A DNA stretch of 64,000 nt. Origin: Gammaproteobacteria bacterium. GTDB lineage: Bacteria; Pseudomonadota; Gammaproteobacteria; Burkholderiales; Thiobacillaceae. The position numbers and the translations under genes were made by a program. The stretch spans positions 620,001 to 684,000 of the forward strand of contig JAHJNN010000017.1 in assembly GCA_018820765.1 (NCBI GenBank). The letters are read 5' to 3'. Under the pieces are notes generated by a model. The model saw only the letters and a list, made by a program, of their open reading frames with translations. It ran no database searches and had not been told where the DNA came from. Of this stretch, positions 4,956-54,879 are shown piece after piece; within the stretch, counting starts at the first letter, position 1, and each line of letters begins with the position of its first letter.

Positions 4956-5804
4956 ATGAAGCTGTTGAACTGGAACATCCAATGGGGCCGCGGCCTGGAC
5001 GGCGAGGTCGATCTCGCGCGCATCCTGCGGACCATTCGGCAACTGGGCGACTTCGACCTTATCTGCCTGCAGGAAGTCGCAGTCAACTTCCCCGGCCTGC
5101 CCGGCAGCCGCGGCGAAGACCAGGTCGCCGAACTGTCCGCCGGCCTGCCCGGCTATACCGCGATCTACGGCGTGGCAACCGATGTGCCCGACGGCCGCGG
5201 CGGCCGCAGCCAGTTCGGCAACGTCATCTTTTCCCGCCTGCCGGTCGGCCAGGTGTGGCGGCGTCTTCTCCCGTGGCCTGCCGAGTTCGACGTGCCCAGC
5301 ATGCAGCGCGTGCTGGTGGAAGCCGTGGTGACGGCCGACATCGGCCCGCTACGCGTGATGACCACCCACCTCGAGTACTACTCGCAGCACCAGCGCCAAG
5401 CGCAGATCGACGCCATCCGCCGCCTGCACGCCGAGGCCTGCGCCATGGCGCTGCGCGTGCCGCTGCCCGAAGAACAGGGCGGTGCCTTCGAAGTGTTTCC
5501 CTGGCCCGCCGAGGCGCTGCTGTGCGGCGATATGAATTTCCCCGCATCGGCACCCGAACGATCGCAGATCCTCGCGCCGTTTCCAGGCGGCGAGCCCGGC
5601 TTTCGCGACGCCTGGGATGTGCTGCACCCCAGCAAACCGCACGCCCCCACCGTCGGCATCCACCCGGTCGATTTCGTCAAACAGCCCGAATGCTTCGACT
5701 TCGTCTTCGTCACTGAAGGACTGGCTGGCCGCCTCAGGGCGCATGGCATCGATGCCGAGACCGAAGCATCGGATCACCAGCCGGTGTGGGTCGAGTTGGT
5801 TTGA
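4956..5804 (+). CDS. Endonuclease/exonuclease/phosphatase (EEP) family protein
   Basis: A 282-residue protein of the EEP superfamily, the Mg-dependent fold shared by ExoIII-type nucleases, DNase I and inositol phosphatases. The N-terminus MKLLNWNIQWG holds the conserved Asn, LICLQEV holds the metal-binding Glu, TTHLEYYS supplies a catalytic His, LLCGDMNFP is the GDxN motif and ASDHQPVWVEL is the C-terminal SDH motif. All expected catalytic elements are therefore visible. There is no signal peptide, so a cytoplasmic role is likely. The substrate cannot be read from sequence. A GGAG ribosome-binding site precedes the ATG. It is divergent from gltB. Confidence 0.88.
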   Translation: MKLLNWNIQWGRGLDGEVDLARILRTIRQLGDFDLICLQEVAVNFPGLPGSRGEDQVAELSAGLPGYTAIYGVATDVPDGRGGRSQFGNVIFSRLPVGQVWRRLLPWPAEFDVPSMQRVLVEAVVTADIGPLRVMTTHLEYYSQHQRQAQIDAIRRLHAEACAMALRVPLPEEQGGAFEVFPWPAEALLCGDMNFPASAPERSQILAPFPGGEPGFRDAWDVLHPSKPHAPTVGIHPVDFVKQPECFDFVFVTEGLAGRLRAHGIDAETEASDHQPVWVELV

Positions 5805-6320: not shown

Positions 6321-7114
6321 GCTTGGCTTGGTGTGGGCTGGCGCTGCGCCCAGCGCAGCATGATGACGCCGGCGACGACCATTGGCAGGGAGAGCCACTG
6401 CCCCATGGAGAGCCCCAAGCCCAGCAGGCCGAGGAAGGCATCGGGTTCGCGGGCGAATTCGGCGAGGAAGCGGAACGCTCCGTAGCCGATGAGGAACACG
6501 CCGGAGACGGCGCCGACCGGGCGCGGCTTTCTCGAATACAGCCACAGGATGACGAACAGCAACAGGCCTTCGCCGGCAAACTGGTAGAGCTGCGAGGGGT
6601 GGCGCGCGATGCCGTCCGCCGCCTGAGGAAACACCATGCCCCAGGGCAGGTCGGTGGCGCGTCCCCACAGTTCGCCGTTGATGAAGTTGCCGAGCCGGCC
6701 GGCGGCCAGGCCCAGCGGCACCAGCGGGGCGATGAAATCGGTGACGGCGAGCCAGCGCAGCTTGTGCCGGTGCGCGAACAGCATCATGGCGACGAGCACG
6801 CCGAGAAAGCCGCCGTGAAAGCTCATGCCGCCTTCCCACAGCTTGATGATGTCGAGCGGGTGCGCCAGGTATTCCATCGGCTTGTAGAACAGCACGTAGC
6901 CGAGCCGCCCGCCGAGGATGACGCCGAGCACGCCGTAGAACAGCACATCGTCGAGCATCTTCGCGTTCCAGCCGGTCCACGGCCGGTGCGCGATGCACCA
7001 GCGCCCGAGCAGGATCACCTGCAGGAAGGCGAGGAGGTACATCAGGCCGTACCAGTGGATGGCGACGGGGCCGAGCTGCAGGGCGACGGGATCGAATTGC
7101 GGATGAACGAGCAT
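6317..7114 (-). CDS. lgt: Phosphatidylglycerol-prolipoprotein diacylglyceryl transferase
   Basis: This 265-residue polytopic inner-membrane enzyme transfers diacylglycerol from phosphatidylglycerol to the lipobox cysteine of prolipoproteins. The first membrane segments contain [11 protein letters not shown], and the Lgt signature [13 protein letters not shown], with the essential Arg and Asn residues, is present near the middle. [10 protein letters not shown] is another conserved block. Length and topology match the family. It is followed by an overlapping vanZ-like gene. Confidence 0.97.
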
Positions 7115-7206
7115 GGGGGCGGGGTCAGGATTCAGGGATCGGGATTCAGGGAGATCAAAGCGCAGGTAAAATGGCTGGCTGATTATAGATTGCCCGAGTG
7201 ACCATC

Positions 7207-45959: not shown

Positions 45960-46502
45960 CTAGACCGGCTTCGGCGGGTGTTTGTCGAGTTTGCGCTGCA
46001 GGGTGCGGCGGTGCATCTTGAGCGCGCGCGCGGTGGCCGAGATGTTGCCGTCGTGCTCGTTCAGCACTTTCTGGATGTGCTCCCATTCCATGCGCGCCAC
46101 CGATAAAGGCTCGGGACTGACTTCGAGTGCCGCGTCGGGCTGGTCGCGCAACAGCGCGGCGAGGATCTCGTCGGCGTCCGCCGGCTTCGCCAGGTAGTGC
46201 CGCGCGCCCAGCCGCACCGCCTCGACCGCGGTGGCGATGCTGGCATAGCCGGTGAGCACGACGATGGCGGGCGCGGGCTTGCGCGCGGCCAGCTGTTCGA
46301 CGACCTTGAGCCCCGATTCGCCCGGCAGCTTGAGATCGACGACGGCATGGCTGGGGGCGAAGCGGTCTGCCACGGACTGGGCTTCGCCGGCGTCGCGCGC
46401 CAGCGCCACCACGGCCCCGCGTTTCTGCATCGCGCGCGCGAGCGCGGCGGCAAAATCGGCATCGTCCTCGACGATCAGGAGTTTCATCGCAGCAGCATTC
46501 AT
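45960..46502 (-). CDS. regA: Redox response regulator RegA/PrrA/ActR family
   Basis: A 180-residue response regulator. The receiver domain has LLIVEDDADFAAALA, the phosphoacceptor Asp in HAVVDLKLPGESGLKV (about residue 56), and the switch Thr and Lys (VVLTGYAS, YLAKPA). The C-terminal Fis-type helix-turn-helix IQKVLNEHDGNISATARALKMHRRTLQRKL is the hallmark of RegA/PrrA. These regulators control respiration, carbon fixation and other redox genes. The ATG overlaps the regB stop (ATGA), making a coupled regBA pair; the order kinase-then-regulator is opposite to Rhodobacter, where the genes diverge. Confidence 0.92.
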   Translation of the reverse strand: MNAAAMKLLIVEDDADFAAALARAMQKRGAVVALARDAGEAQSVADRFAPSHAVVDLKLPGESGLKVVEQLAARKPAPAIVVLTGYASIATAVEAVRLGARHYLAKPADADEILAALLRDQPDAALEVSPEPLSVARMEWEHIQKVLNEHDGNISATARALKMHRRTLQRKLDKHPPKPV

Positions 46503-47755
46503 GCGGGCGGGTTCCAGGGGAGTGTGATGCGAACGCGGGTGCCGCCGCCTTCGCGTTCGGTGAGCGTCAGGCTGCCGCCCACACGCTCCAGCGTGGCGTG
46601 GGTGAGCGCGAGGCCCATGCCCCAGCCGCGCCCTTGCTTGCCGCTGAACAGCACGCGGCCGGCCTGTGCCTTCTGCTCGGCGGTGAAGCCGGGGCCACGG
46701 TCGGCAATGTCGATGACGAGCGCGTCAGCGTCCGTCTCCGCGTCGAATTCGACGGCGGCGGGCGAGGCGTCGGCCGCATTGTTCAGCACGTTCTGGATCG
46801 CCTGCTCCAGCCCCTCGGGCGGGACGAAGTCGCGGCGCTCGCGCGGCAGTCCGGTGGTGATCCGTGCATCCGGGCGCAGCACCTGCCAGCGTTCGACGAC
46901 CGCGGCGAGCCAGGCGTCGAGCGGCTGTGCGGCGGACCGGGTGTCCTGCGCGCGCGCGGCGATCTGGGTGAGGATGCGCTTGCATGCTTGCGCCTGTTTT
47001 TCGAGCAGCAGGCAATCGGCGCCGATGTCGGGGTCGTTGGCGAATTCGGCGGCGAGCTCGTGCGCGGTGGTCTGGATGGTGGCAAGCGGCGTGGCCAGTT
47101 CGTGCGCCGCCAGCGCCGCCTGGGTGCCGAGCGCGACGATGCGCTCGTCGCGCAGCTGCTTTTCGCGCAGGTCGGCCAGTTCCTGGTCGCGCGCGCGCAG
47201 CGCGGCATGCATGCGGGTGACGAAGAACGCGATCAGCGCCGCGCTGATGAGGAAGTTGAACCACATCCCGCCCAGGTGCATGCCGTAGGCCGCGACCGGG
47301 TCGGCGATCGCCAGCGGCTGGTAGACGAACAGCAGCAGCGCGTAATAGCCGCCTGCCACCGCCGCCAGCAGCCACACCCAGCACGGGCGCAGGCTGATCG
47401 CCGCGATGATGACCGGCACCAGCATCAGCGAGACGAAGGGATTGGTGGCGCCGCCGCTGAAGAACACCAGCACCGCAAACGCGGTGAGGTCGGCCAAGAG
47501 GTGCGCCAGGAATTCCATCTGCGTGGCCGGCACGTCCAGCCGCAGCCGCCATGCGGTGGACAGCGAGAACAGCCCCATCAGCACCAGCACCGCACTCATG
47601 GGAACGAGCGGCATGCGGATGCCGAGTCCCCAGTGCAGCCAGACGATGCCGACCGCCCAGCCGCTGATCAGCGACACGCGCACCGCCAGCAGGCGCCCCA
47701 GCAGGGCGCGGGCGGGCAGGGTGGACAGCAGGGTGGAATCCGCTCGGGTGGACAT
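46499..47755 (-). CDS. regB: Redox sensor histidine kinase RegB/PrrB/ActS family
   Basis: A 418-residue membrane kinase with six N-terminal transmembrane helices. The quinone-binding heptapeptide GGATNPF lies at 101-107, the phospho-accepting His218 in the H-box AAHELATPLATI, and the redox cysteine of RegB corresponds to Cys258 in QAQACKRIL. The C-terminal ATPase has NNAADASP (N-box) and GWGMGLALTHATLERVGG. All hallmark RegB features are therefore present, so it likely responds to the quinone pool or redox state. It is translationally coupled to regA. Confidence 0.94.
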   Translation of the reverse strand: MSTRADSTLLSTLPARALLGRLLAVRVSLISGWAVGIVWLHWGLGIRMPLVPMSAVLVLMGLFSLSTAWRLRLDVPATQMEFLAHLLADLTAFAVLVFFSGGATNPFVSLMLVPVIIAAISLRPCWVWLLAAVAGGYYALLLFVYQPLAIADPVAAYGMHLGGMWFNFLISAALIAFFVTRMHAALRARDQELADLREKQLRDERIVALGTQAALAAHELATPLATIQTTAHELAAEFANDPDIGADCLLLEKQAQACKRILTQIAARAQDTRSAAQPLDAWLAAVVERWQVLRPDARITTGLPRERRDFVPPEGLEQAIQNVLNNAADASPAAVEFDAETDADALVIDIADRGPGFTAEQKAQAGRVLFSGKQGRGWGMGLALTHATLERVGGSLTLTEREGGGTRVRITLPWNPPA

Positions 47756-47938: not shown

Positions 47939-50239
47939 CTAGAACTGGACGTTCAGTCCGACATGGAGCGAGCGGCCCATGCCCGGAACGGCGGTGCCCC
48001 AGGCCGGGCTGCCCGCCACCGCCATCGGCGGCATGGTGATGCCCTGACCGACGTAGGCTCCGCCGAGCGGATGGTAGTAGAGCCGGTCGAACACGTTCTC
48101 GATGCCCACGTCGAGGCGCACCTTTTTCCAGGCATGGCTGCTGCGCAGGTTCAGCAAGGCGTAGCCGGGCGTTTCGATCTCGTTGCGGATGTGCGAAACC
48201 TCCGTCTTTGCATCGACCAGGTGGACTTCGGCCAGATGGGTCCAGCGCCCGTGGCGCTGCGTGACCGACAGCTTCGCGTTGAGCGGCATGATGTTGTAGA
48301 GATTGTCGTCCGGCCCGCTCGCGGTTCTGCCGCGGACGTAGCTCAGCAAGCCGTTCGCGGTGAAGCTGCCGTAGGCGGTGTTTTTCGCCAGCGGGAAATG
48401 GCCGGACACGTCGAAGCCGTAGAGCTGCGCGTCCTGGTTGTCGAACTTGAGGAAGACGAACTGGTCCGTCGCCGTCAGGTTGGCCGCGTTGCATCGCGTG
48501 CCGCTCGTCGCGGCTGTGTCGCCCGGTCCGCAGCGCCGCGCGTTGATGTAGTCGTCGACGTAGGTGTAGTAGGGGGCGATTTTCAGTCCCCATTCCGTCT
48601 GTCCGGCGTCGTGCCAGTCGAAGCTCGCGCTCACGGTGTGGGCGATCTCGGGCGCAAGGTCGAGGTTGCCGACGTAGCCGTTGCCGTCGCCGGCCAGGTT
48701 GATCATGTTCATCGCCATGCCGCCGGTGGACCAGGTGTAGCGTTCGTAGAGGTTGGGCGAGCGGGTCTTGCGGGCGTAGCCGAATTCGACGGTCTGCGTT
48801 CTGGACGGCGTGTGGCGGGCGAGCGCGGTCAGGTCCCAGTTGGCGTCGGTGCGGGCGCGGTCGCTGGCATTGAAGGCGGCCGCATCGCCGGCATAGGTGC
48901 CGTTGGCGCTGTAGCCCTGCACCGGCCCCGCATCCATCCTCACCGTTTCGTGGCGCAGGCCGATAAGGCTCAGCCATTGCGGGGCCCATTGCGCTTCCCA
49001 TTCGGCAAACGCCGCGTAGCGATCGCGCTCGCCGTCGTTGATGTTCAGGAAGGCGTTGGGCGACATGCCGCCGCTGCCGGACGGCGGCCACCAGTCGTCG
49101 AGGCGATAGCGCTGAAATTCGCTTCCGACCCGGAGGGTGTCGCGCGTGGAGAGATCGATGTCGGCCTTGAGCACGGCGCCGGTGTTCCTGCCCTCGGTGA
49201 GCATCGGCATGCCGGGTGCGTTGCCGCTGTACCAGAACGCCTTGTCCTCCAGGAAATTCATCTCGTGCTCGGTGTGCTCGCGGTACACGCGCGCTTCGAG
49301 CCGGCCCCAGTCGTATCGCCCCGTGTAGCGCAGGTTGGCCTGGGTGCTGGTGTTGTCGGTCATGTCCATGCGCTGGTTGGGGTAGCCCTGATAGGGAATG
49401 TGCTGATACCCAAGCTTCAGGTCGAGCAGATGCTGGTCATGGCGCAGCGCAACGCCGAGCGACTGGTTGGTGGACTTGTACTGCGTCGAGCCGACCTCGT
49501 CGCCCGGCAGCCACTTGGTCGAGTTGTAGAGCGACTGCGCGGTGGCGATGTAGGCCAGCCCCGCCGGCTTGAAGTCGCCGCCGGCCGTATAGTTGCCGGA
49601 CTGCGCGGTCGAGCCGCTGTAGCTCACGCTCAGCGTTTCGCCGGCGGCGGTCGCGGCGAGATTGGCGCCCACCGCGTTGCCGTTGCTGCGATAAAACGTG
49701 CCGGCTTCGCCCTTCGCCAGCGTGCCTTGCCCGGCCGCGGCGAATTCAGGCGCGGCGGACTCCACCAGGATCGTGCCGCCGATGCTGTCGCCGCCCGAAC
49801 TCACCGGCGCAATGCCGGCGAACACCTTGATGCTGCCGACCTGGGTCGGGTCGAGGTAGGAAAGCGGCGGGTTCATGTGGTTGCCGCAGGCGGAGATCAG
49901 GTCCATGCCGTCGACCTTGATGCGCAGGCGGTCGTCGGCCAGGCCGCGAATCGCCGGCAGGCTGGAAACGCCGCCGGCGCCGGTGAGGCTGACGCCGGGG
50001 CTGTCGCGCAGCAGGCTTGCCGTGTCGCTGGTGACTGCGCGCAGGGGCAGCAGCGCGTCGGCGTCGAGCGTCACGCTGTTGGGTTCGACGTCGGTGGGCT
50101 CCGAGCCGACGACGACCACGGTCATGAGGGGCGTGTCCGGCGGCACGGAAGGCGCAGCGCTCTGCGCGGCGGCGTTGTTCCACAGCGCCGACAGTGCAAG
50201 CGTGACGGCGAGGGGGAGCGGCTTTCTGGGGAGCAGCAT
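47939..50239 (-). CDS. oprC: TonB-dependent copper receptor (OprC/NosA type)
   Basis: A 766-residue outer-membrane receptor. Signal peptide MLLPRKPLPLAVTLALSALWN ending near AAAQ, TonB box MTVVVVGSEP, plug motif LPAIRGLADDRLRIKVDGMDL, then ISACGNHMNPPLSYLDP, the Cys-x3-Met segment that binds copper in Pseudomonas OprC and is typical of TonB-copper receptors. The barrel ends HVGLNVQF with an aromatic residue. It is divergent from a copper chaperone gene, which supports copper as the substrate. NosA relatives supply copper for nitrous oxide reductase. Confidence 0.9.
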   Translation of the reverse strand: MLLPRKPLPLAVTLALSALWNNAAAQSAAPSVPPDTPLMTVVVVGSEPTDVEPNSVTLDADALLPLRAVTSDTASLLRDSPGVSLTGAGGVSSLPAIRGLADDRLRIKVDGMDLISACGNHMNPPLSYLDPTQVGSIKVFAGIAPVSSGGDSIGGTILVESAAPEFAAAGQGTLAKGEAGTFYRSNGNAVGANLAATAAGETLSVSYSGSTAQSGNYTAGGDFKPAGLAYIATAQSLYNSTKWLPGDEVGSTQYKSTNQSLGVALRHDQHLLDLKLGYQHIPYQGYPNQRMDMTDNTSTQANLRYTGRYDWGRLEARVYREHTEHEMNFLEDKAFWYSGNAPGMPMLTEGRNTGAVLKADIDLSTRDTLRVGSEFQRYRLDDWWPPSGSGGMSPNAFLNINDGERDRYAAFAEWEAQWAPQWLSLIGLRHETVRMDAGPVQGYSANGTYAGDAAAFNASDRARTDANWDLTALARHTPSRTQTVEFGYARKTRSPNLYERYTWSTGGMAMNMINLAGDGNGYVGNLDLAPEIAHTVSASFDWHDAGQTEWGLKIAPYYTYVDDYINARRCGPGDTAATSGTRCNAANLTATDQFVFLKFDNQDAQLYGFDVSGHFPLAKNTAYGSFTANGLLSYVRGRTASGPDDNLYNIMPLNAKLSVTQRHGRWTHLAEVHLVDAKTEVSHIRNEIETPGYALLNLRSSHAWKKVRLDVGIENVFDRLYYHPLGGAYVGQGITMPPMAVAGSPAWGTAVPGMGRSLHVGLNVQF

Positions 50240-50383: not shown

Positions 50384-50480
50384 ATTTGCCGCCCGATTGC
50401 CTATCGTTTCCGTCAATCCGAAGGGCGGCGTGTCGAGTCCGCGCCCGCTTGTACCGTTTCGACTATCAATGGGAAAAAAG

Positions 50481-50954
50481 ATGAAACTGAAGATTTTGAT
50501 GTTTGCCACGATCGGCGTCCTGGCCGCGCAGCCCGCCTGGGCCGCCAACGTCAGCGTGACCGACGCGTGGGCGCGCGCCACCATGCCGGGGCAAAAGGTC
50601 AGCGGCGCCTACATGCAGATCCAGTCGGACGCCGACGCGCGCCTGGTCGGCGTATCCAGCCCGGCGGTGCCGCGGGTGGAAGTGCATGAGATGAAGATGG
50701 ACGGCGACGTGATGCGCATGCGCGAAGTGCAGGCGATCGATCTGCCGAAGGGCAAGACGGTGTCGCTGCAGCCCGGCGGCTTTCACATCATGCTGATGAA
50801 TCTCCCGAAGCCGATCGCGGCCGGCGAGATCATCCCGCTCACCCTGACGGTGGAGTCAGGCGGCAAGCGGCAGACGGTCGAGGTGAAGGCCGAGGCGCGC
50901 GACGCCATGGGCAGTGGCGCCATGTCTCACCCACCCATGCAGCACCATCATTGA
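50481..50954 (+). CDS. PCu(A)C periplasmic copper chaperone
   Basis: A 157-residue periplasmic protein. A signal peptide MKLKILMFATIGVLAAQPAWA is followed by a PCu(A)C domain whose copper ligands match the family pattern H-x10-M-x21-H-x-M exactly: His69, Met80, His102 and Met104. The C-terminus is Met/His-rich (SHPPMQHHH). These chaperones deliver Cu(I) to cytochrome oxidase or nitrous oxide reductase. A GGGA ribosome-binding site favours ATG 50481. It is divergent from the copper receptor and convergent with the RiPP operon. Confidence 0.92.
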   Translation: MKLKILMFATIGVLAAQPAWAANVSVTDAWARATMPGQKVSGAYMQIQSDADARLVGVSSPAVPRVEVHEMKMDGDVMRMREVQAIDLPKGKTVSLQPGGFHIMLMNLPKPIAAGEIIPLTLTVESGGKRQTVEVKAEARDAMGSGAMSHPPMQHHH

Positions 50955-51031: not shown

Positions 51032-51805
51032 TTACTCACCTTTGCCCGGCTGACAGGCTCCCAGGATCGCGCCGCGCGCGCGTAAGTCGCCGAGCAGCGC
51101 GCCGCCGGCCTGAATCACGAGCGCGGGATCGGGATGGCGGCTCTCGGCCGCGATTTGCTTGAGTGCACTGCGGCCGGTGAGCGTGCCGGGCTCCAGCAGC
51201 GCCAGCAGCCGCGCGGTGAAGGCGTTGATTTCGCTGAACTGCACGGCGTCGTCGGCGTCGCGAAACACCAGCAGATGCGTTTCCACGGGAACGACCTTGC
51301 GGCGCGGCGCGATGCGCTGCACCGGCCAGTCGTAGCGCAGATTGGCCAGCACCGGATTCAACAGCGGCACGCCGTCGAGCAGATCGCCCGCCGCATCGAA
51401 CGCGCGATCCGCGCTGCGGTTCGACACCGACAGCACCAGCTCGATCCATTCGTAGTGCGCCAGCGCCAGCAAATAGGGCGGATCGCCGTCCGCAGGCGTC
51501 CATTCGTTCTGCAGGAACTGGATGAACTCGTCCGGGATCTGCCGGAAATAGGGCGTGCGGCTGCGGTGCGTGGCAAAGAACGCGCGCACCAGCTTCGCCC
51601 ATTTGCGCGCGCCCAGCACCTGCCGCAGCACCGGAAAGCACGCCAGCAGGAATCCTTCGATATTGTTGACGAGCAGTTCGTTGTAGACCTTCATGCGCCG
51701 CGCTTCGACGCCGGCCGGGCGCGGATGCGCCCTGGGGTCGCGGATGTGCGCGGTGAAGGCGAACTGGTAGCGCTGGAACTCAGGACGCGCGGCTGGCTTG
51801 TTCAT
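51032..51805 (-). CDS. DUF2063 partner protein of the MNIO enzyme (HvfC/BufC-like)
   Basis: A 257-residue DUF2063 protein. The N-terminal domain begins [23 protein letters not shown] and includes [29 protein letters not shown], the recognisable family region; a C-terminal winged-helix-like part contains [26 protein letters not shown]. In related systems (HvfC, MbnC-like proteins) it binds the precursor and presents it to the DUF692 enzyme. Its start overlaps the DUF692 stop by 26 bp, so translation is coupled. The DoxX-type membrane gene often found next is absent; a REP pair follows. Confidence 0.9.
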
Positions 51806-52631
51806 GTCGATGGTGTTGCGCCTGGATGCGCGCGATATGCTCGACTTCGCGCACCAGCACATCCAGCGGCGGAATGTTGAAGTCGCGCTCCAGCAGCGTC
51901 GGCGCGACGCCGTGGATGCGATAGGTTTCGTCGAGCATCGCCCACACCGGATCGATCACGTCGGCGCCGTGGGTGTCGACGATCAAATCCTCGGCCTCGA
52001 CGTAATGCCCGGCCATGTGCAGGTAGACGATGCGTTCGGTCGGCAGCGCACGGATGAATTCGAGCGGGTCGTAGCGGTGGTTCACGCTGTTGACGTAGAC
52101 GTTGTTGACGTCCAGATGCAGGTCGCAGCCGGCTTCACTGAGGACGGCGCGGATGAACGCGATCTCATCCATGTCGGCGACCGGCGACGGCGTGTAGTAC
52201 GAGGCGTTTTCGATCGCGATGCGGCGTTCCAGGATGTCCTGCGCGCGGCGGATGCGCGCAGCGACGTATTTCACCGCCTCTTCCGTGAAGGGAATCGGCA
52301 GCAGGTCGTACAGGTGCCCGTCGTCCGAGCAGTACGACAGGTGTTCGGTATAGAGCTGGATGCCGTGCGCATCCATGAATTGCCGCGTCTTCGTCAGCAG
52401 CATTTCGTCAAGCGGTGACGGTCCGCCGAGCGACAGCGACAGACCGTGGCAGACGAAGGGGTAGCGTTCGGTGAAGCCGCGCAGGTCGCGGCCGTAGGCG
52501 CCGCCCATGTCGATCCAGTTTTCCGGAGCGAGCTCGAAGAAATCGATGGCGTCGGGGACCCGGGTTTTCAGCGCGGAAATCAGTTCGCGCCGGAAGCCGA
52601 GCCCCGCGCCGGCAAGGCGCAGGGGGTTCAT
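51780..52631 (-). CDS. DUF692 multinuclear iron oxidase (MNIO; HvfB/BufB-like)
   Basis: A 283-residue TIM-barrel enzyme of the DUF692/MNIO family, which uses two or three iron ions to modify cysteines of peptides. Expected metal and catalytic residues are visible: Glu37/Asn38 in LAPENWID, His62 in [11 protein letters not shown], Glu96 in YTEHLSY, Glu141/Asn142 in [10 protein letters not shown], Asp174 in [13 protein letters not shown], His205/His209 in HMAGHYVE, Asp219 and His221 in [14 protein letters not shown] follows. It lies 12 bp after the EGKCG-repeat precursor gene, which should be its substrate. Confidence 0.95.
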
Positions 52632-52643
52632 GACTACGCCTGC

Positions 52644-52931
52644 TTATTTCTTGGCGCCGCCTTCTTCCATTTTCTTGGCGCCGCCGCACTTGCCTTCGCC
52701 GCATTTGCCTTCCTTGGCTTTGGCCTTATCGCCGCCGCACTTGCCTTCCGCTGCCTTGGCGCCGCCGCACTTGCCTTCCATGGGCTTGGCGTGATTGTCG
52801 GCCACCTGGTAGCCGGAGGCCAGGCCGGACAGCGCGAAGGGGTTTTCCGCGGCCGTGGCGAGGGGGGCGGCAGCCATGCTGGCGACGAAAGCGGTGCCGG
52901 CAGCGGCGGCGATCAGGGATTTCTTGGACAT
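52644..52931 (-). CDS. Secreted EGKCG-repeat RiPP precursor (HvfA/bufferin-like)
   Basis: A 95-residue precursor. The first 28 residues are a Sec signal peptide (MSKKSLIAAAAGTAFVASMA, then AAPLATAA). The mature part has a spacer (ENPFALSGLASGYQVADNHAKPM) and four EGKCG motifs with cysteines 55, 65, 77 and 82, separated by Gly/Ala/Lys/Asp linkers; there are no other cysteines. EGKCG is the modified core in Haemophilus HvfA and related bufferins, where MNIO enzymes turn the Cys into copper-binding groups. A GGAGAGA ribosome-binding site fixes the ATG at 52931. The upstream frame is not used. Confidence 0.92.
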   Translation of the reverse strand: MSKKSLIAAAAGTAFVASMAAAPLATAAENPFALSGLASGYQVADNHAKPMEGKCGGAKAAEGKCGGDKAKAKEGKCGEGKCGGAKKMEEGGAKK

Positions 52932-52978
52932 GTGTTCTCTCCTAACAGGTTTAAATTCAACGACGGTCAATAAAAGCC

Positions 52979-53014
52979 GGAAATTTCCAGCGTGTTGCAA
53001 AAGGCTCATGAGCC
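52979..53014. promoter_or_regulatory. Two short palindromes before the RiPP precursor gene
   Basis: GGAAATTTCC (52979-52988) and GGCTCATGAGCC (53003-53014) are perfect palindromes in the 74-bp gap between the anti-sigma and precursor genes; the second overlaps the anti-sigma stop. They may mark an internal promoter or operator. Confidence 0.35.
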
Positions 53015-53263
53015 GAGCATTTTCTGCAATTCGGTTTCGATGCGCCGCCGGGCATCAGGCGCAAGTCCGGCGGTGTCATCGGGTGCCGCCGTCTCTTCGC
53101 GAAACAGGCGGCGCATCTCCTGCAACTGGCGGTTGAAACGGGCGCAGTTCTCACAGATGGCCAGATGCAGGCGTAAGGCCATGCGGCTGGAAAGCGGCAG
53201 CCGCTCGTCCATCGCGCGCGAGGCGAGTTCCGTTGTTTCCCGGCACGTCGGCATCCATTTCAT
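53006..53263 (-). CDS. Zinc-finger anti-sigma factor
   Basis: An 85-residue cytoplasmic protein. The ZAS-type motif is His33, Cys37 and Cys40 in RLHLAICENCARF, with Cys7 in MPTCRETTE as a possible fourth ligand. It lacks a transmembrane segment, so it would sense metal or redox signals in the cytoplasm through the Cys/His cluster. Its ATG overlaps the sigma factor stop (ATGA), the usual coupled sigma/anti-sigma pair. I prefer this start over an upstream in-frame ATG, because it begins at the overlap. Confidence 0.87.
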   Translation of the reverse strand: MKWMPTCRETTELASRAMDERLPLSSRMALRLHLAICENCARFNRQLQEMRRLFREETAAPDDTAGLAPDARRRIETELQKMLGS

Positions 53264-53826
53264 GCGGCACCCACTTTCGAAAACCCGTTCAGTTCCAGGC
53301 ACTGCCGCATGAACAACCGTGCTCGGTGCAGCAGTACCCAGCAGTTGGTCGGGGTGATGTTCAGTTCCTTACAGATTTCTTCGGTCTCCATGCCGGCCAC
53401 CTCGCGCAGGCTGAATACCTGCGCCATCACCGGCTTCAGGCGGTCGGCGCATTCGTCCAGCACGCGCCGCAGCTGGCCCAGTTCCGCCTCGGTCTGCGGG
53501 TTGCCCCAAGGCCGCAGCGGCTCGGCCCAGTGGCCGTCCTGCTTGAACAGGCTGTCGACCGCTTCCTCGCCGTCCTCGTCGCGCGGGATTTCCACCTCGC
53601 GCACGTTGCGCCGGATCAGGTCGACGATCTTGTGCTTGAGGATGCCGGTGAGCCAGGTGCGCGGGCTGGCATCGCCGCTGTAGCGGGCCTGTGCCGAAAG
53701 CGCGGCGAGCAGGGTTTCCTGCACCGCGTCCTCGGCCAGTTCGTCGGAATGCAGTTGGCGGCGCGCCACGCGGAACAGGTAATCCCCGTGTTCGGCCAGC
53801 CAGGTGTGTGCGTCGAGCGTGTTCAT
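53260..53826 (-). CDS. ECF-type RNA polymerase sigma factor
   Basis: A 188-residue sigma factor. Region 2 is YLFRVARRQLHSDELAEDAVQETLLAALSA... TWLTGILKHKIVDLIRR, and region 4 is SLREVAGMETEEICKELNITPTNCWVLLHRARLFMRQCLE. It is the first gene of the leftward operon sigma, anti-sigma, RiPP precursor, DUF692, DUF2063, and so should activate that operon and itself. Region 4 carries a Cys in TPTNCWVLL and the C-terminal Cys in RQCLELNG. The promoter could not be defined confidently from the 171-bp upstream gap. Confidence 0.92.
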   Translation of the reverse strand: MNTLDAHTWLAEHGDYLFRVARRQLHSDELAEDAVQETLLAALSAQARYSGDASPRTWLTGILKHKIVDLIRRNVREVEIPRDEDGEEAVDSLFKQDGHWAEPLRPWGNPQTEAELGQLRRVLDECADRLKPVMAQVFSLREVAGMETEEICKELNITPTNCWVLLHRARLFMRQCLELNGFSKVGAA

Positions 53827-53967
53827 CGGTGATCCTTGTCACAATACCCGCGGTGCGGGCACTTTAGAGGCAGTCGTGCAAAGCGGCAACCCGCGCCCGA
53901 TTCCGCAATGCCGCATTGCAATGCCGGCCCCGGTCTCCGCTTCGCGCCGCCATTTTTATTGGCGTAA

Positions 53968-54879
<912 letters not shown>

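Follow-up and report, generated by a model that had tools for sequence, protein, structure and literature searches.

A putatively autoregulated EGKCG captophorin operon headed by its own sigma/anti-sigma pair in a Thiobacillus-type genome

Background

What does an operon make, and what turns it on, when genes for an extracytoplasmic function (ECF) sigma factor and a zinc-finger (ZAS) anti-sigma factor stand at the head of those for a cysteine-repeat peptide, a multinuclear non-heme iron-dependent oxidative enzyme (MNIO) and a DUF2063 protein? Such an operon occupies positions 51032-53826 of the 64,000-nt stretch of contig JAHJNN010000017.1 (assembly GCA_018820765.1) examined here, henceforth the window. 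The source genome (3.44 Mb in 18 contigs, 99.98% complete) is of the Thiobacillus type, a sulfur-oxidising bacterium, and carries one MNIO gene, the closest relatives of whose product belong to Thiobacillus (identity up to 95% among 156 relatives). We find that the operon is a clear new example of a known system, not a new kind: judged by its sequence, it is an EGKCG captophorin cluster (oxazolin-type, HvfABC), which, upon release of its own stress-sensing switch, most likely produces a small peptide that traps copper.

EGKCG clusters with an MNIO, a DUF2063 protein and often a DoxX protein have been described as Buf_EGKCG or oxazolins (PMC12452194). Captophorins, the Neisseria gonophorin included, carry 5-thiooxazole groups, bind copper and are described among the most populous classes of ribosomally synthesized and post-translationally modified peptides (RiPPs; PMC13097082). 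In characterized members, modification removes about 4 Da per EGKCG cysteine and gives an absorbance near 305 nm. Our literature search found no paper joining Thiobacillus with MNIO.

Gene content and family assignments

The five genes run on the minus strand in the order sigma, anti-sigma, precursor, MNIO and DUF2063 protein (Table 1), as a first-pass annotation of this DNA had stated; the span fits the open reading frames, and the family matches lie above cut-off. The sigma factor contains Sigma70_r2 and r4_2 domains above the Pfam cut-off and belongs to TIGR02943 (191 bits against 162 in NCBIfam). The ATG of the anti-sigma gene overlaps the sigma stop codon, and its product matches zf-HC2 (Pfam, 28.1 against 22.2) and NF052368 (NCBIfam, 66.7 against 50), with no membrane domain predicted in the Pfam scan. 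As likewise read at first pass, the precursor has 95 residues and four EGKCG motifs, at residues 52-56, 62-66, 74-78 and 79-83, with no cysteines other than those within them (55, 65, 77 and 82). It has no Pfam match, scores 31.6 against a cut-off of 19.5 with the HvfA-type repeat model NF050137, and begins with what by eye resembles a signal peptide.

The MNIO matches PF05114 (344 bits) and the HvfB model NF003818 (431 against 360); its nearest solved relative is 3bww (E 2.7e-79), and the His/Asp/Glu-rich motifs appear by eye to be conserved. It falls below the cut-offs of MNIO_BufB (252.9 against 310) and of the methanobactin MbnB-type TIGR04159 (30.9 against 325). The partner protein combines PF09836 and PF22106, both above cut-off, with the HvfC model NF050145 (282 against 142). 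In the longer open reading frame, residue 33 is the first that the HvfC model covers, so that the start is more likely at 51805 than at 51862. The earlier designation of the locus, an RiPP operon of the HvfABC type that probably serves copper binding and has an ECF/zinc-finger anti-sigma pair to itself, is supported. The accompanying statement that DoxX is absent is correct for the operon locus, where we find none, but not for the genome, which codes for an HvfX-type DoxX next to another precursor of the EGKCG type.

Table 1. Coordinates of the operon, its candidate regulatory elements, the copper-related neighbors and the second locus (L129, a stretch of contig C9 of the same genome)
Feature	Sequence	Position	Strand	Basis
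ECF sigma factor, 188 aa, TIGR02943	window	53260..53826	minus	open reading frame, Pfam, NCBIfam
Zinc-finger (ZAS) anti-sigma factor, 85 aa, Cys7-x25-His33-x3-Cys37-x2-Cys40	window	53006..53263	minus	open reading frame, Pfam, NCBIfam
Precursor, 95 aa, four EGKCG motifs at 52683-52778	window	52644..52931	minus	open reading frame, NCBIfam
MNIO (DUF692), HvfB family	window	51780..52631	minus	Pfam, NCBIfam, solved-structure comparison
DUF2063/RRE partner, HvfC family	window	51032..51805 (longest open reading frame from 51862)	minus	Pfam, NCBIfam
Conserved promoter-like motif GTTGYCGC-N11-GCCTCTAAAG, its first base 64 bases ahead of the sigma start	window	53862..53890	minus	locus comparison
Inverted repeat (CCGG-type arms) in the anti-sigma/precursor gap, a weakly supported hairpin candidate	window	52976..52991	minus	scan, alignment
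PCu(A)C copper chaperone, convergent, outside the operon (start by eye)	window	50469..50954	plus	Pfam, locus comparison
TonB-dependent receptor, OprC-like, CGNHM 118-122, HEM 325-327, outside the operon	window	47939..50239	minus	Pfam, NCBIfam, structure comparison
Second locus (sigma, anti-sigma, precursor, DoxX)	L129	5400-7188 (contig C9 about 91399-93187)		profile and open reading frame reading
Second sigma factor	L129	5400-5987
Second ZAS anti-sigma factor	L129	5987-6262
Second precursor, 97 aa, six KCG cysteines	L129	6352-6645
HvfX-type DoxX	L129	about 6727-7188

Relationship to characterized systems

The sigma pair, taken at first pass as the distinguishing feature of the operon, is not new for EGKCG clusters, because the same genes are under sigmaE with MseR in Neisseria and under RpoE2 with HrsE in Haemophilus. 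In Neisseria, the operon (NMB2140-2145 / NGO1948-1943) also holds the genes for sigmaE and MseR, is autoregulated, and has its genes co-transcribed with that of sigmaE (PMC2893595, PMC3240639). As in the window, sigma and ZAS anti-sigma genes share one operon with those for precursor, MNIO and DUF2063 protein; the last of these, NGO1945, is structure 3dee, the nearest solved relative of the window partner, and has been named the partner protein of the ngo (gonophorin) cluster (PMC12452194, PMC13097082). The -10 elements are similar (CGTCTAAH in Neisseria, GCCTCTAAAG here), whereas the -35 elements differ (GTMAGBWTT against GTTGYCGC). Moreover, Neisseria sigmaE also controls msrA/msrB, and its operon has DoxX first and the sigma pair last, while in the window the pair comes first and DoxX lies elsewhere in the genome. 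In Haemophilus influenzae, the hvf (oxazolin) cluster, with the same precursor, MNIO and DUF2063 families, is under RpoE2/HrsE, again an ECF sigma paired with an anti-sigma of the small ZAS kind; DoxX lies inside that cluster.

Fontiphorin, like other captophorins or Buf_EGKCG systems, combines an EGKCG precursor with an MNIO and a DUF2063 partner and resembles the window locus in being without DoxX; the passages of PMC13097082 consulted mention no linked ZAS/ECF pair for it. Bufferin 1 clusters also join MNIO and DUF2063 genes with those for sigma and anti-sigma factors (PMC12452194). These differ from the window operon in their DUF2282 precursor and NrsF anti-sigma, as against a non-DUF2282 precursor, a ZAS anti-sigma and an MNIO scoring below the BufB cut-off.

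Phyletic distribution of the sigma-first arrangement

A search for the same gene order in relatives, suggested at first pass, recovered it repeatedly near home. Our near set comprises the best 80 of the 156 relatives of the single window MNIO, which biases it toward Thiobacillus, and was annotated with profiles made from the window proteins and one DoxX. In it, 47 loci are sigma-first like the window (one of them, L002, scored on a sigma fragment), four have the pair after DUF2063 and DoxX, and 29 show neither arrangement, including three with fewer than 1300 bases upstream and one (L009) with sigma fragments. A linked pair is thus present in 51 of 80, which also tells against its being distinctive of this locus. 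The near set includes cultivated T. thioparus (L078), which carries this locus. By the rule used, no precursor was found in three of the sigma-first loci (L005, L029, L030), and DoxX is present in 17 of the 80, nine of them sigma-first, though the DoxX of L002 belongs to a second-type cluster (see below). A class-wide set of 40 combined two further places with 38 picked from the matches listed, ranked by score, at intervals of about four rows. The same profiles detected DUF2063 in 29 and DoxX in 13 of these, and a co-directional linked sigma pair in none; they derive from the near loci and may miss distant sigmas or DoxX, and three of the 40 have short upstream sequence. Four class-wide loci (L104, L107, L116, L118) have a sigma match in another arrangement. 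Given 47 of 80 against 0 of 40, sigma-first order is a feature of Thiobacillus and neighboring lineages. One clade of a sigma tree (support 100/100, bootstrap not settled) holds 30 of the 56 rows, that of the window included, in line with vertical inheritance.

Twelve near-set precursors (L010, L011, L019, L023, L024, L027, L032, L052, L053, L056, L062 and L067) show by eye an EF-hand-like D-x-N-x-D-G between KCG motifs; EGKCG/EF-hand fusions have been described (PMC12452194).

The anti-sigma factor and a candidate promoter

The Cys-x25-His-x3-Cys-x2-Cys spacing of the window anti-sigma recurs in all 51 linked anti-sigmas examined and in the second anti-sigma of the same genome, and equals that of meningococcal MseR (Cys4, His30, Cys34, Cys37; PMC2893595). 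Upstream of the sigma gene lies the promoter-like motif of Table 1. Allowing up to four mismatches, it occurs in 30 of 48 sigma upstream regions (the window copy, L001, included) against 4 of 960 shuffles, and stands 58-67 bases before the sigma start in 28 of the 48, L050 and L067 being off the usual distance. At up to two mismatches its sole place in the genome is upstream of the window sigma. With three mismatches four more places appear, and a reversed control pattern gives an equal count (5 vs 5); the window has no other copy at up to three. A scan of 56 genus genomes gave 30 places at up to two mismatches. All 15 with none or one lie directly upstream of a window-type sigma gene, as do seven of the 15 with two, and the remaining eight do not exceed the reversed control (12). 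As close copies sit only before the sigma gene, the sigma factor looks dedicated to its own operon. It presumably recognizes the motif.

Could the pair be a mere neighbor, with a sigma factor that controls only itself or other genes while the precursor, MNIO and partner genes are expressed on their own? The 74-base gap between the anti-sigma and precursor genes, which holds a terminator-like inverted repeat, would allow it, though three such repeats were found in the window against a shuffle mean of 4.0; so would the lack of a linked sigma in the Nitrosospira/Nitrosomonas-type loci and in the class-wide set. The repeat keeps its place in most Thiobacillus loci of an alignment, but its structural signal is equivocal: single-locus shuffles are unremarkable (window 0.24), the alignment (29 of 33 sequences, with L042, L067, L072 and L074 dropped) has 87.4% of cells paired against 83.4% when shuffled (3/500), the covariation score is reached by 44 of 500 shuffles, and the consensus energy is -0.38. 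A separate GGAA...CGTC-type ECF promoter directly before the precursor was considered and rejected, as it fits the window and L002, matches L008 imperfectly, and is unconserved in other loci. This, the linkage of the pair in two different arrangements (47 sigma-first and four sigma-last loci), and the co-transcription of the Neisseria genes with that of sigmaE (PMC2893595) make separate expression improbable.

The spacing between argB and the sigma gene is 171 bases in the window (53827-53997) and about 640 in many other Thiobacillus loci, L005 and L008 among them. In other Thiobacillus loci, an element conserved ahead of the sigma gene resembles by eye a heat-shock promoter that would serve a divergent small heat-shock gene. 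In the divergent loci L056 and L074, the bases upstream of the sigma gene resemble by eye the start of such a gene, with a heat-shock-like promoter element.

Proposed mechanism and the nature of the stress

We consider it probable that the window harbors an autoregulated stress operon making an EGKCG captophorin, an oxazolin-type RiPP. By analogy with the systems above, the zinc-bound cytosolic anti-sigma would hold the sigma factor at rest, until its Cys/His site is upset by thiol-reactive stress, be it from Cu(I) in excess, from other thiophilic metals or from oxidants, hypochlorite for one. The freed sigma would then act at the motif (53862-53890) and have the operon to which it belongs transcribed. 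The partner, with its RiPP recognition element (RRE), would present the precursor to the MNIO, which would turn the cysteines of the four EGKCG motifs into what are most likely 5-thiooxazoles, and the peptide, exported by Sec, would bind copper in the periplasm.

Several points weigh against this proposal. The precursor misses the cut-off of the full-length HvfA model of NCBIfam (20.8 against 95). The motif was chosen by eye from the very loci in which it was counted, so that the count is no independent test, and the 56 genus genomes probably overlap those loci. The motif can also be read, weakly, as a sigma-70 promoter, TTGCCG-N17-TAAAGT (8/12), though a sigma-70 scan at threshold 9 listed no site there. 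In Haemophilus, unlike the window, the sigma gene lies outside the cluster, beside msrAB. Finally, expression of meningococcal sigmaE is unchanged by oxidants (PMC2893595).

This last observation also bears on the possibility that the operon answers mainly to oxidative or chlorine stress, its modified peptide scavenging oxidants or protecting the envelope, with copper binding secondary. Such a role would suit an anti-sigma that is a ZAS of the RsrA/MseR kind, and the homologous four-gene cluster of Haemophilus is induced through RpoE2 after exposure to HOCl (PMC7907618). Apart from the unresponsiveness of meningococcal sigmaE, it is opposed by the copper binding of characterized EGKCG products (PMC13097082) and by the PCu(A)C and OprC-like receptor genes adjoining the operon in many Thiobacillus loci; we regard it as a tentative alternative to the captophorin operon proposed above.

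A second precursor locus in the same genome

Contig C9 carries a second TIGR02943 sigma factor, 44% identical to that of the window, followed by genes for an anti-sigma, a precursor (NF050137, 68 bits) and a DoxX of the HvfX family (150 against a cut-off of 80). Neither MNIO nor DUF2063 was found at this locus, where the contig ends about 1.8 kb past DoxX with an opposite-strand open reading frame between, and the window sigma motif has no match in L129 at up to three mismatches. The single MNIO may serve both precursors. They share NPFALS-L-GY-VA ahead of the repeats, as would fit a single partner protein, and among the 44 precursors known from sigma-first loci, 42 have L..GY.[VL]A. Against reading the shared stretch as the sign of one partner, fontiphorin tolerated single alanine changes before its core (PMC13097082).

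Strong relatives of the second sigma (at least 71% identity, two of them partial) occur in seven of the 56 genus genomes, all of which have an MNIO, five of them exactly one. Sigma, anti-sigma, precursor and DoxX are together in four of the seven (the present genome and L131-L133). The second-type cluster lies directly upstream of the MNIO cluster in L002 and G287 (L133), and in G298 an MNIO lies on the opposite strand at a distance of a few kb; only in the present genome and G278 is the cluster on a contig without MNIO. The split arrangement is thus not general. In L002 (3200-7588) the second-type cluster is fused upstream of the main cluster, of whose sigma gene a fragment is left. That the second sigma arose by recent duplication within Thiobacillus was considered and is unsupported: five second-type sigmas form a clade (100/100) that is weakly joined to two Methylophilaceae sigmas (80/89), in a tree whose bootstrap is not settled, where long branches meet, and from which L029 and L030 were left out before it was built.

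In seven of the eight loci compared by eye (L129 at about 5345-5375, L002, L131 and L133-L136, of which L002/L133 and L135/L136 are near-identical pairs), a palindrome like ATTATGTACC-N3-TGGTTCATTAT precedes the second sigma gene. It resembles an operator of the TetR type, and L129 has a TetR-family gene close to the second locus.

It is conceivable, if doubtful, that these loci form a split captophorin system, in which one MNIO/partner pair would serve two precursors at two loci, each with its own ECF/ZAS pair and the second also with the TetR-operator-like palindrome, so that different stresses would choose the peptide and HvfX/DoxX would be made only with the second. With a sigma/anti-sigma pair that apparently has a single target, one MNIO, and two precursors of which only one adjoins HvfX, such a Thiobacillus would offer a tidy model for the inducing signal, for MNIO action on two precursors and for the role of HvfX; the apparently dedicated sigma and the second locus lift the case a little above routine.

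Copper-related neighbors

The convergent neighbor is a PCu(A)C chaperone (131.6 bits against a Pfam cut-off of 29.4), as annotated earlier. A convergent PCu(A)C gene is found in 32 of the 80 near loci, 29 of them sigma-first. The TonB-dependent receptor beyond it, earlier termed a copper receptor, is indeed OprC-like and has CxxxM and HxM motifs, but misses the NCBIfam copper-receptor cut-off (TIGR01778, 100.8 against 472); it scores higher with a haem-receptor model, again below cut-off (133.7 against 317). Its nearest solved relative is OprC (E 6.9e-17), which binds copper at CxxxM-HxM (PMC8610252); the alignment places CGNHM on the CxxxM of OprC and does not cover HxM. All 27 aligned receptors of the near loci retain CxxxM, and 26 retain HxM, the remaining one having a gap there. 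These genes support placing the operon in a putative copper neighborhood.

The first-pass annotation went further and joined copper uptake and the peptide in one regulated module, in which the sigma factor would also drive the PCu(A)C and receptor genes. Conserved adjacency, 26 of the 80 near loci having a receptor gene no more than 5.5 kb away besides the recurrent PCu(A)C, and the retained copper motifs speak for it. However, the PCu(A)C gene lies on the opposite strand, the strand of the receptor gene differs between loci, and the motif is unrepeated in genome and window at the mismatch levels given above. Joint regulation thus seems very improbable, and of this claim the adjacency remains. 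The receptor gene is itself adjoined on the minus strand (45960-47755) by genes for a response regulator and a histidine kinase, which by eye resemble the RegA/RegB redox regulators.

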